Source: Candidatus Manganitrophus morganii
GTDB taxonomy: Bacteria > Nitrospirota > Nitrospiria > SBBL01 > Manganitrophaceae
Direction: 5' to 3'
NCBI GenBank assembly: GCA_021651055.1
Contig: JAJHOH010000001.1
Coordinates: 2,480,001-2,544,000 of the forward strand
Length of the DNA: 64,000 bases
A program made the translations under genes and the position numbers. The notes under the pieces are model-generated. The model worked only from the letters and a program-made list of their open reading frames with translations, searched no databases and had not been told where the DNA came from. Below are positions 20,718-24,434 of this stretch, in pieces; positions within the stretch are counted from its first letter, which is position 1, and each line of letters opens with the position of its first letter.

Positions 20718-21062
20718 GAATATTCTATCCGATGAGTTGATGCTATCTTAACCGTTTTGGTCGTCAAAGTCGATATGAGGAGTTACCCGTTCGATCCGGT
20801 TTATTCCGTAATGATGGGAAAGGGATAAAATAAAAGCGTTGCTTAAAGACAACAGATTTCGCCCGGCTCGTCTTTTTTTTACAACAACTCGCACTCGTGA
20901 TCTAAATTGCGGCACCGATCTTTTTTCTAACCGATTGTTTATGCAAATAAAATAAAATTCTCCGTGGGAAGGGGTTGGCATAGATGTTGCTTTTCCTCTC
21001 CGGGCAATGGTCATTATATCCCATATTGGAGATCAGGAAGGTTCGAGCGAGGTTTCTTACGA
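20718..21062. other. 345-bp divergent region between glgA and lpxC
   Basis: AT-rich in its middle part. The only strong element is the sigma-54-like site at 20975-20991. An 88-codon minus-strand open frame here (20748-21014) has no Shine-Dalgarno and no similarity I recognise. Confidence 0.45.
20975..20991 (+). promoter_or_regulatory. Sigma-54-like (-24/-12) promoter upstream of lpxC
   Basis: TTGGCATAGATGTTGCT: GG (-24) and GC (-12) are spaced exactly as in the sigma-54 consensus TGGCAC-N5-TTGCW, with mismatches only at the two bases after TGGCA. Transcription would start near 21002, about 60 nt before ATG 21063. Confidence 0.5.
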
Positions 21063-21986
21063 ATGATGAATGAAAAAACAATCCAAAACGAGGTATCCTG
21101 CTCTGGAATCGGCCTTCATTCCGGAGAAAAGATTCATCTAAGACTGATTCCCGCCGCCGAGGGGAGCGGGATCCTTTTCTGCAGAACAGATCTCGGCGGA
21201 GTTTTGATCCCTGCGAATGCTTCCCAAGTGGTTTCTACTCATTTGTCTACCACAATCGGGATGGAAGGAGCAACCGTCCAGACGATTGAGCACCTTCTGG
21301 CGGCGATCTCTGCTTTCGGCGTCGATAATCTCATCATCGAATTAGATGGTCCGGAGGTTCCTATTTTAGACGGAAGTGCGGCCCCTTTTGCCGAGCTTTT
21401 ATCAGCGGCTGGGGTTGTTCATCAAAAAAAGGCAAAAAGAATCGTCCAAGTGATCGAACCGGTGACCGTCTCGGAAAAGGGGAAACATGTCACCATTTCT
21501 CCGGCGTCCACCTTCGAAATCTCCTATCAGATCCAATTTGATCATCCGCTGATCTCGAGCCAGACATACCGTTATCAGCATAGCCCGGAAACCTTCATGA
21601 CCGAGATCGCTCCGGCCAGGACATTCGGGTTCCTGAAAGATGTCCAAATGCTTCAATCAATGGGGCTGGCCCGGGGGGGCTCGCTCGAGAATGCGATTGT
21701 CATTGGGGAGGAGCAGGTGTTAAATGAGGGGGGCCTTCGCTTCCCGGACGAATTCGTTCGCCACAAAATTCTCGATTTAATTGGAGATCTCTCGCTGCTC
21801 GGAATGCCGATCCTCGGTAAGATCGAGGCGGTTTGCTCGGGGCACCTGCTTCATTCAAGGCTGATTAAAGCGCTTTTACAAAACAATAAAGCCTGTAAAA
21901 TCTTGGGCGCCGGTCCCGCGGTTGAACCACACAGGGTTCCTTCCCGACCGGTACCGATCTACTCGCCGCTCTCTTCAGCAATATAA
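21063..21986 (+). CDS. lpxC: UDP-3-O-acyl-N-acetylglucosamine deacetylase
   Basis: 307 residues from MMNEKTIQNEVSCSGIGLHS. This is the committed, zinc-dependent step of lipid A synthesis. The zinc-binding IEHLLAAI motif, DGSAAPFAELL, TFGFLKD and the C-terminal RHKILDLIGDLSLLG are present. Length is typical for a single-domain LpxC without a FabZ fusion. ATG 21063 and ATG 21066 are adjacent; the open frame upstream overlaps the promoter and is not used. Its presence supports an LPS-bearing diderm. Confidence 0.95.
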   Translation: MMNEKTIQNEVSCSGIGLHSGEKIHLRLIPAAEGSGILFCRTDLGGVLIPANASQVVSTHLSTTIGMEGATVQTIEHLLAAISAFGVDNLIIELDGPEVPILDGSAAPFAELLSAAGVVHQKKAKRIVQVIEPVTVSEKGKHVTISPASTFEISYQIQFDHPLISSQTYRYQHSPETFMTEIAPARTFGFLKDVQMLQSMGLARGGSLENAIVIGEEQVLNEGGLRFPDEFVRHKILDLIGDLSLLGMPILGKIEAVCSGHLLHSRLIKALLQNNKACKILGAGPAVEPHRVPSRPVPIYSPLSSAI

Positions 21987-22046: not shown

Positions 22047-22121
22047 CTATTTCTTTTTTGTCGCTTTTTTCTTTGTGGCGGTCTTCTTTTTTGTCGCCAA
22101 TTCTCTCTCACCCCCTTTCAT
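22047..22121 (-). CDS. 24-residue lysine-rich microprotein coupled to the HARE-HTH gene
   Basis: The ATG at 22121 overlaps the stop of the upstream gene (ATGA). The sequence is MKGGERELATKKKTATKKKA followed by TKKK and a TAG stop. Three near-perfect K(K)KAT repeats give an extremely basic peptide resembling eukaryotic H1-type or bacterial histone-like tails (AlgP, Hc1). A terminator follows 20 bp later, so it is the last reading frame of the transcript. Alternatively it is the product of a frameshift extending the HARE-HTH protein with a basic tail, since it lies in a different frame from it. Too short for most gene finders. Confidence 0.5.
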   Translation of the reverse strand: MKGGERELATKKKTATKKKATKKK

Positions 22122-22654
22122 GACCCAGCAGGGTTTTTTCCAAACAGGGTTTCCGGCCCTGTCTCCTCAACAAGCGTGAATGTATTCGGCGCAATTTTCT
22201 TGAAGCGCTTATCCCTTGAAAGGGAGATGGCGACCGAGGTCACAGGGGTCTTCCCCCTGATTCGAACACCCCCCTCCGTAAGTTTTTGATATATTTCTTT
22301 GGCATGGAGCGGCTTACCGGCCTCTTTTAAGAGCAAAAAGGTCCCCTGTGGGACGGAGAGTCCGGCATATTTGGTTTTTTCTAGAAGGATTTCTTTTGAA
22401 TGGTCATGGCCTTCGGCGGTTGGTTTGCCACCCTTCTCTTTTTCCGTTTCTGAAGTAAGTTGATTAGAAGGCTGGGCCCACTTGGCCTTTTCAATTTCGA
22501 CGCGGTAGAGTGTTTCGGCGAGCTCTAGGTATTTTTTGACAGTCTTAATTTCATCCTCAATTTTTTCACGTTTCTTTTGAAGCTCTTGTAGTTTCGACTT
22601 GTAAACGTGAATTCGCTGTTCAAGACCTGTAATAATATCTTTGAAGTCTTCCAC
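22118..22654 (-). CDS. Coiled-coil HARE-HTH domain protein
   Basis: 178 residues if started at GTG 22654. Residues about 5-65 form a coiled coil (VYKSKLQELQKKREKIEDEI), then a charged linker and a C-terminal HARE-HTH winged helix (GTFLLLKEAGKPLHAKEIYQ through SVAISLSRDKRFKKIAPNTF), the fold found in RNA polymerase delta and restriction-associated proteins. It is likely DNA- or RNAP-associated. An upstream ATG (22684) falls within the predicted -10 region and ATG 22675 overlaps it, while AGAGGT stands 6 bp before the GTG, so the GTG is preferred. A predicted strong promoter gives a leader of about 14 nt. Confidence 0.75.
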   Translation of the reverse strand: MEDFKDIITGLEQRIHVYKSKLQELQKKREKIEDEIKTVKKYLELAETLYRVEIEKAKWAQPSNQLTSETEKEKGGKPTAEGHDHSKEILLEKTKYAGLSVPQGTFLLLKEAGKPLHAKEIYQKLTEGGVRIRGKTPVTSVAISLSRDKRFKKIAPNTFTLVEETGPETLFGKNPAGS

Positions 22655-22674
22655 TGTAACACCTCTATAGAACA

Positions 22675-22703
22675 TGTATAGCACATAGAATAATTACAGT
22701 CAA
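22675..22703 (-). promoter_or_regulatory. Sigma-70 promoter of the HARE-HTH gene
   Basis: Minus strand: -35 TTGACT (22703-22698), exact 17-base spacer, -10 TATACA (22680-22675). The start near 22668 precedes the ribosome-binding site AGAGGT (22666-22661). The 22704-22811 flank is AT-rich and otherwise empty. Confidence 0.65.
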
Positions 22704-22811: not shown

Positions 22812-24434
22812 CTAATGAGGAGTTTGGGAGCGTTTTTTAAAGCGACTCTTGATAAGATTGAGGATAAAGTACATTTCTTCACTTTTTAGCGAGGCTTGTA
22901 TCAAGAAATAGGATGCTGCACTTACAGCGATTGCTATAGCAAGTAGCGCTGCTTTAAGGAGCAAGCTCCCGCTGGAGAGCCACATCTCTTGGGCATTTAG
23001 CCATAAGGAGATCGGTAAAAGGGTGCTGGAGGCGAGGAGGACCTTTAGATGTGAGTTGAGAATTCGTTTTCCGTCGATCCGTCCGATCCGTTTCCTCAAA
23101 ATGAGGAGCAAGAGGGAGAAGTTGAGGATTGCTGAAAGGGAGGTCGCCAGGGCCAAGCCGCCATGCTGAAGCGGGCCCATCAGGATGAGATTCAGAATCA
23201 CATTGGCGACCACGGCAACCAGACCGATCTTTACAGGGGTCTTCGTATCCTGAAGAGAGTAGAAGACCGGTACCACGATTCGGATTCCGGCAAACGCCCA
23301 AAGTCCGATGGAATAGAACAGAACGGCGTTTGCCGTCCCAAGTGTCGCCACGCGGCCGAATTCCCCATGTTCGAAGAGAAGATGAACGATCGGAATCCGA
23401 AAGAGGATGAGCCCCATCATGGCGGGAAAGGTGATAAAAAAGACCAACCGAAGGCCGAATGAAAAGGTTTGCCGCAACCCTTCTGTTTCTCCTTTCGCCG
23501 CTTGTGCCGAGAGGGTCGGAAGAATCGCAGTGGAGAGGGCGACGGCAAAGATGCCGAGCGGGAAGTGGATGAGCCGCATCCCGAAATAAAGATAAGTGAC
23601 GCTTCCGGCAACCAAGTATGAGGCGAGAAGGGTGTTTACCAGGACGTTGATTTGCGTGACGGAAAGGCCGAGCGTCGTCGGAAGGAGGAGCCGTCCCATT
23701 TGAACAACACCGGGATGGAGCGGCCGGATCGGTCTTCGAAAGGAAAGAGGGAATCCCTCCTGATAGAGGGCGGGAACCTGGATTAGGAATTGCGCGAGTC
23801 CTCCCAATGCAACACCGACCGCGGCCCCGTAAACCGGCTCGGGAAGGAGCGGGGTAAAACCGAAGACAAAAAGGATGCTGACCACATTAAAAACACCGGA
23901 GGCGAGCGCCGGGGGGGCGAAACGCCGGGTGCTGTTGAGGATTCCCATCGCGAGGGCCGCCAGAGAGATAAAGAGGAGGAAGGGAAACATGATGCGGGTC
24001 ATGGAAACGGTCAGCGAGAATTTATGGGGATCATCGACAAAGCCGGGCGCAATCAAGCGGATCAGTTGGGGAGAAAAGAAAATCCCGAAGGCGACGACAA
24101 TACAAAGAAGCAGAAGGAGGGTGGTAAACGCCGCCGAGGCAAGCTCTTTGGCCTCCGATCGTGACTTTTTCGAGAGGTACTCCGTAAAAACCGGAATAAA
24201 GGCGGCCGACATCGAGCCCTCGGCAAACAACTCCCGAAGGATATTCGGAATCCGGAAGGCGACATAGAATGCATCCGCCGCGATCGTTGCCCCGAAGAGG
24301 TTGGCCAGGATCATATCCCGAATGAATCCGAGAATGCGGCTGATCAGCGTCCCGAACGCGACAATACCGGCCGCGCCGGCGATTCCTTTCTCGACGTGAC
24401 CTTGAGCAGCGAGGCTTTTTCCTTGACTTTCCAT
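22812..24434 (-). CDS. murJ: Lipid II flippase
   Basis: 540 residues with about 14 transmembrane helices; it flips lipid II across the inner membrane for peptidoglycan synthesis. The MviN/MurJ signature is seen at the N-terminus (GTLISRILGFIRDMILANLF; FRIPNILRELFAEGSMSAAF) and the essential Arg residues of the cavity are kept. Length is typical. It is divergent from rpsT, with starts 48 bp apart. The start ATG at 24434 has no strong Shine-Dalgarno. Confidence 0.94.
   Translation of the reverse strand: MESQGKSLAAQGHVEKGIAGAAGIVAFGTLISRILGFIRDMILANLFGATIAADAFYVAFRIPNILRELFAEGSMSAAFIPVFTEYLSKKSRSEAKELASAAFTTLLLLLCIVVAFGIFFSPQLIRLIAPGFVDDPHKFSLTVSMTRIMFPFLLFISLAALAMGILNSTRRFAPPALASGVFNVVSILFVFGFTPLLPEPVYGAAVGVALGGLAQFLIQVPALYQEGFPLSFRRPIRPLHPGVVQMGRLLLPTTLGLSVTQINVLVNTLLASYLVAGSVTYLYFGMRLIHFPLGIFAVALSTAILPTLSAQAAKGETEGLRQTFSFGLRLVFFITFPAMMGLILFRIPIVHLLFEHGEFGRVATLGTANAVLFYSIGLWAFAGIRIVVPVFYSLQDTKTPVKIGLVAVVANVILNLILMGPLQHGGLALATSLSAILNFSLLLLILRKRIGRIDGKRILNSHLKVLLASSTLLPISLWLNAQEMWLSSGSLLLKAALLAIAIAVSAASYFLIQASLKSEEMYFILNLIKSRFKKRSQTPH

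Follow-up and report, generated by a model that had tools for sequence, protein, structure and literature searches.

Based on codon-position bias, interchangeable start codons and an island of sequence identity, we conclude that a micro-ORF on the reverse strand of the window (the whole 64,000-nucleotide stretch of the Candidatus Manganitrophus morganii genome analyzed here) is a genuine, previously unmodelled micro-gene that evolves as a protein. We further propose, with a probability of about 0.6, that it specifies a strongly translated, free and disordered polycationic peptide, which would function as a stand-alone counterpart of a histone H1-type tail by acting in trans on a polyanion.

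An initial sequence-only reading had delimited this ORF as positions 22047-22121 (-), with a 24-residue translation (MKGGERELATKKKTATKKKATKKK) and an ATG at 22121 that overlaps the stop codon of the upstream HARE-HTH gene as ATGA, and had interpreted this overlap as translational coupling. The longer frame and its overlap are indeed present, but the true start is most likely the TTG at 22100, located 21 nt past the ATG and 7 nt after GGGGGTGA, giving a micro-ORF of 17 codons at 22047-22100 (-), which is recognizable by its Shine-Dalgarno (SD) sequence, NTG start and ATKK frame. Its predicted product, (M)ATKKKTATKKKATKKK, has 17 residues and a net charge of +9, and ends at a TAG stop. We prefer the TTG because it has a strong SD and because relatives conserve an SD, a TTG, ATG or GTG start and the A-T-K-K motif, and not the ATGA. 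The extended SD GAAAGGGGGTGA (22108-22119 (-)), 7 nt 5' of the TTG, has a computed duplex energy of -20.6 kcal/mol with the 3' end of 16S rRNA, close to that of a perfect anti-SD complement (-22.2 kcal/mol), as against -14.9 kcal/mol for the best SD among 55 other window genes with long ORFs. The pairing available to the ATG at 22121 amounts to -3.3 kcal/mol; with no useful SD at that codon, an overlap that is mostly absent from relatives, and micro-ORFs that in most relatives lie tens of nucleotides beyond the HARE-HTH stop with an SD of their own, the coupling proposal had to be abandoned. The sequence GAAAGGRGGTGA occurs eight times in the 4.29-Mb genome and is followed by a lysine-rich ORF at this site only; the micro-ORF itself is present in a single copy in this genome.

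We then examined 45 loci anchored on the HARE-HTH gene and drawn from diverse genera of the class Nitrospiria, using a search that did not require an SD. A lysine-rich ORF with an SD and an intact frame lies directly 3' of the HARE-HTH gene in all 45, at a median distance of 49 nt from its stop (range 5-219). The same stretches yielded the ORF in 44 of 45 cases against 0 of 1800 dinucleotide shuffles (40 per locus), the single miss (L086) probably being an ORF cut by a contig end. Thus, the absence of a conserved ORF or a broken frame in related genomes, either of which the sequence-only reading had named in advance as counting against it, was not observed. The strict pattern of SD, TTG and ATKK is found in 189 of the 270 genomes of the class, normally once in each, and the reversed pattern gave no matches across the same 270. 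Matches to the corresponding ATG/GTG pattern in the class mostly represent a second, unlinked locus in Nitrospira. Such a second, lpxC-independent micro-ORF locus was seen in Nitrospira relatives at L138, L124 and L139 (and L063-L071), and in two of these cases, L124 and L139, a gene for a metallo-beta-lactamase-fold-like protein lies downstream of it.

The pattern of variation within these ORFs is that of a protein-coding gene. Across 37 distinct 12-residue ORFs, minor alleles are distributed over codon positions 1, 2 and 3 as 22, 15 and 107, and the family uses all four alanine codons and both lysine codons. Among 160 distinct sequences the start codon is TTG in 110, ATG in 36 and GTG in 14; as these were the only codons admitted by the start finder, their exchange is informative, whereas no weight attaches to the lack of a fourth. 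Together with the third-position bias, this exchange within the permitted set marks the micro-ORF as coding. Furthermore, the 12-residue members share 84% pairwise identity within the ORF, whereas the 30-nt flanks are nearly random, at 26% for the one preceding the SD and 33% for the one following the stop. SD energies computed over 159 relatives refer to ORFs preselected by an SD motif, but the 45 HARE-anchored loci all show an SD anyway. The peptides contain hardly any residues other than Lys, Ala, Thr and Pro, are 12 residues long in most Nitrospira and 17 in the window, and mostly span 11-25 codons in the family as a whole, with growth by KKA-type repeats up to a maximum of 113. Prodigal has a default minimum gene length of 90 nt, and standard gene callers would be expected to overlook a gene of 12 codons.

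The upstream cistron (22118-22684 (-)), which the sequence-only reading had assigned to the HARE-HTH family, is confirmed as a member, scoring 31.9 bits with PF05066 against a gathering cut-off of 25.9. A 23-sequence alignment and an AlphaFold2 model of the protein were considered together: the model displays an N-terminal helix at about residues 2-70, joined by a disordered linker to a winged helix at the C-terminus (95-171), with the HARE domain at 115-171, and the start conserved in the family is probably a GTG near 22663. The protein is found in 220 of the 270 genomes of the class. Its nearest solved folds in Foldseek searches are the RNA polymerase delta subunit (top match 8x6g chain E, RpoE of Firmicutes) and several winged helices, including the Rok DNA-binding domain, all with E-values above 0.003 (about 0.004 or worse). 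The next gene 5', murJ (22812-24434 (-); PF03023), belongs to a cluster present in 15 of the 45 loci and is not a class-wide conserved neighbor. On the other side, lpxC (20964-21986 (+); PF03331) faces the micro-ORF in convergent orientation at 34 of the 45 loci and in most Nitrospirota loci examined.

These observations bear on the rival explanation that survives best, namely that the micro-ORF supplies a basic tail in trans to the HARE-HTH protein, with the two acting jointly on DNA or RNA polymerase. The position of the micro-ORF immediately 3' of the HARE-HTH gene despite changed flanking genes is in its favor, no HARE locus among the 45 being seen without it, as is the resemblance of the neighbor to delta and Rok, weak as those E-values are. 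Likewise, in 14 HARE-less genomes the micro-ORF is also absent at lpxC, both being missing there from some genomes of families f5, f10 and f6, which suggests either some link between the two or a simple joint deletion of neighbors, and indicates that the micro-ORF is dispensable and may depend on HARE-HTH. Against a dedicated partnership, at least eight genomes carry intact micro-ORFs with no HARE match (G071, G179, G106, G111, G108, G072, G031 and G024), G108 and G072 still having recognizable HARE fragments upstream; several genomes thus keep the micro-ORF beside lpxC after loss or breakage of HARE-HTH. Diverged partial HARE sequences were detected by tblastn in G070, which had no match in the initial HARE search, and in G079. 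No fusion of HARE-HTH to a basic tail, an arrangement that the sequence-only reading had suggested looking for in relatives, occurs among the HARE proteins read from the 45 loci. Moreover, the frame of the micro-ORF relative to HARE-HTH is 1, 2 or 0 in 21, 17 and 7 of the 45 loci; as all three relative frames occur and the micro-ORF is kept without an intact HARE-HTH gene, we conclude from this comparison that it does not provide HARE-HTH with a tail in cis.

The range of the micro-ORF outside HARE loci cuts both ways for such a partnership. In other classes of Nitrospirota and in Methylomirabilota, one to three copies follow a different winged-helix operon, whose winged-helix protein has a nucleotidyltransferase-like second half and is not HARE-HTH; the recurrence of a winged-helix protein argues for an association, whereas tandem copies and others that stand alone argue against it. 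A winged-helix plus nucleotidyltransferase-like gene was observed 5' of the micro-ORF at L131-L137 and L145, several of these loci having a second ORF in between that appears HEPN-like by eye and returned no Pfam match, so that an MNT-HEPN-like pair seems to replace HARE-HTH there. At L131, L132, L133, L134, L145 and L185 we observed two or three tandem cassettes of SD and micro-ORF, apparently amplified and in most cases then followed by a hairpin. Taken together, we regard a tail dedicated to HARE-HTH, as the sequence-only reading had it, as not supported by these arrangements, and the joint-action explanation as rather doubtful; a looser functional partnership with the neighboring winged-helix protein is possible.

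A scan of named genomes, which gives a lower bound on the taxonomic range, recovered among the matches listed at least Nitrospira moscoviensis, Candidatus Troglogloeales, Methylomirabilota and Rokubacteria, as well as single cases in Moranbacteria, Goldiibacteriota and Pedosphaera. The Candidatus Troglogloeales match (L172) has the same micro-ORF as G007:C77, and the order of G007 and the window includes Candidatus Manganitrophaceae (PMC9040806). About 11 of the 80 named matches listed were discarded as chance occurrences or ordinary longer genes (L148, L164, L168, L176, L190, L195, L201, L202, L207, L214 and L223). In the bacteria of L188, L199 and L215, the micro-ORF is accompanied by a similar 3' flank (about GACTCGCTGCTTAGGGCTGAACCTGC) with no Rfam match. 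We take the look-alikes from Methylomirabilota, from Nitrospirota classes other than Nitrospiria and from some further bacteria to be probable homologs, but Lys/Ala peptides of such small size might have arisen by convergence in different phyla.

The micro-ORF is followed after 18 nt by an intrinsic terminator, a hairpin GGGGGGCCCTTCGGGGCCCCTC with a T tract at 22028-22007 (-) (z = -3.2), which bears out the earlier view that this last cistron serves a purpose and has a dedicated terminator. Hairpins (z < -2 versus mononucleotide shuffles) lie 3' of 91% of the 160 homologous ORFs. At L104, L111, L153 and other Nitrospiraceae loci, this hairpin has a recurrent AGGCCACT center and a stem with apparently compensating changes; it may be a terminator type of this lineage. 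A further explanation is that the conserved entity is a cis-acting mRNA element, in which the near-perfect SD traps the 30S subunit and stabilizes or regulates the transcript, with the peptide as a by-product. Such an element could be read from the approach of the SD to full anti-SD complementarity, from the frequency of the following hairpin and from the precedent of Staphylococcus aureus, where an extended SD can control initiation (PMC13009471). However, selection at codon positions 1 and 2, the interchange of start codons and in-frame variation in length indicate that the peptide matters, and the micro-ORF is kept where the upstream gene is lost. A known structured RNA was rejected, as eight loci including that of the window gave no Rfam match at the gathering score. 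Hence, we consider an mRNA element unlikely.

The remaining explanations fare worse. That the selected feature is a pyrimidine-rich tract on the opposite strand, complementary to the lysine codons and used in Rho-dependent or bidirectional termination of lpxC, would fit the convergent lpxC in the class and in other classes, but is very improbable given copies away from lpxC and an SD, start codon and codon-position signature that would be meaningless on that strand. A programmed -1 frameshift yielding a HARE-HTH-KKKAT fusion, which the sequence-only reading had entertained in pointing to a slippery sequence before 22118, has in its favor an A AAA AAC heptamer at 22133-22139 (-), 12 nt before the HARE-HTH stop and in the right frame for a slip into the micro-ORF, placed identically in two near-identical members of the genus; the heptamer is nevertheless judged incidental and the fusion can be set aside, as its frame relation differs in other members of the genus, all three frames occur across the class and stops lie between the two genes in most relatives. 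Equally negligible is an attenuator leader peptide, suggested by lysine codons followed by a hairpin, as the SD and ORF are the last elements of an operon and, with lpxC convergent, no same-strand gene lies directly after them.

Returning to the preferred reading of a free polycationic peptide, we posit that the micro-ORF probably shares its transcript with a winged-helix gene, that for HARE-HTH in the case of the window, and that its exceptional SD would drive a high level of translation. The resulting disordered polycation might then neutralize or bridge DNA, RNA or another polyanion in trans, as its composition suggests, with nucleoid DNA or rRNA being our first guess for the target; neither its translation nor its survival would hinge on the winged-helix partner. 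More tentatively, the sequences could be seen as a phylum-wide, near-minimal protein family of 12-17 residues, at least half of them lysine, that would be among the most strongly initiated ORFs of its genome and would serve as a stand-alone H1-like tail or counter-ion of the ribosome or nucleoid, combining with varied winged-helix proteins as a split module of DNA-binder and basic tail. The micro-ORF keeps its protein sequence while adjacent bases randomize and the partner gene decays, and thus bears on the minimum size of a selected protein and on basic tails as separate bacterial gene products. Should translation follow the prediction from the SD, a highly charged peptide absent from the family libraries searched would be made by Nitrospira and its manganese-oxidizing relatives.

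Comparisons with known systems place the micro-ORF and its neighbor near, and outside, several of them. The RNA polymerase delta subunit has a winged helix of the same type as the HARE-HTH neighbor, and a short run of lysines follows the HARE domain of delta. The N-terminal domain of delta is folded, and its C-terminal region is disordered and acidic (PMC7749165). In contrast, the HARE-HTH protein has a long helix before the HARE domain and a short C-terminus without an acidic tract, the lysine peptide being encoded separately; given the different domain order and missing acidic tail, we rejected its identification as a delta subunit. Rok-type nucleoid proteins combine a coiled coil with a winged helix, and the modeled HARE-HTH protein similarly has an N-terminal helix, a flexible linker and a C-terminal winged helix, but the HARE family is distinct from Rok (E = 0.012 for the match to the Rok DNA-binding domain) and we know of no lysine peptide beside Rok. 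Small leader peptides share with the micro-ORF a length of 10-20 codons, a strong SD and a following hairpin; the micro-ORF differs in lacking a regulated gene 3' and in having conserved residues and multiple stand-alone copies. No relevant publication on lysine-rich microproteins of these taxa emerged from literature searches, and the window peptide had no match in Pfam or NCBIfam. Even the longest member of the family, with 113 residues, resembles HC2 (PF07382) weakly, reaching 23.4 bits against a cut-off of 40; the short forms do not match HC2, and the family scores at most 19.8 against a cut-off of 80 for NF038053. The closest resemblance in composition is nonetheless to the histone H1-like proteins Hc2/HctB of Chlamydia (PF07382), BpH1 of Bordetella and AlgP of Pseudomonas, which are likewise of low complexity and composed nearly exclusively of Lys, Ala, Thr and Pro. 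As in the micro-ORF family, the length of Hc2 varies in frame by repeats (PMC2848022). Hc2 has 165-237 residues, so that the micro-ORF peptides, at mostly 11-25, are ten-fold shorter, and they differ from the H1-like proteins in being encoded by a single short cistron preceded by an extreme SD and in scoring below the family cut-offs.
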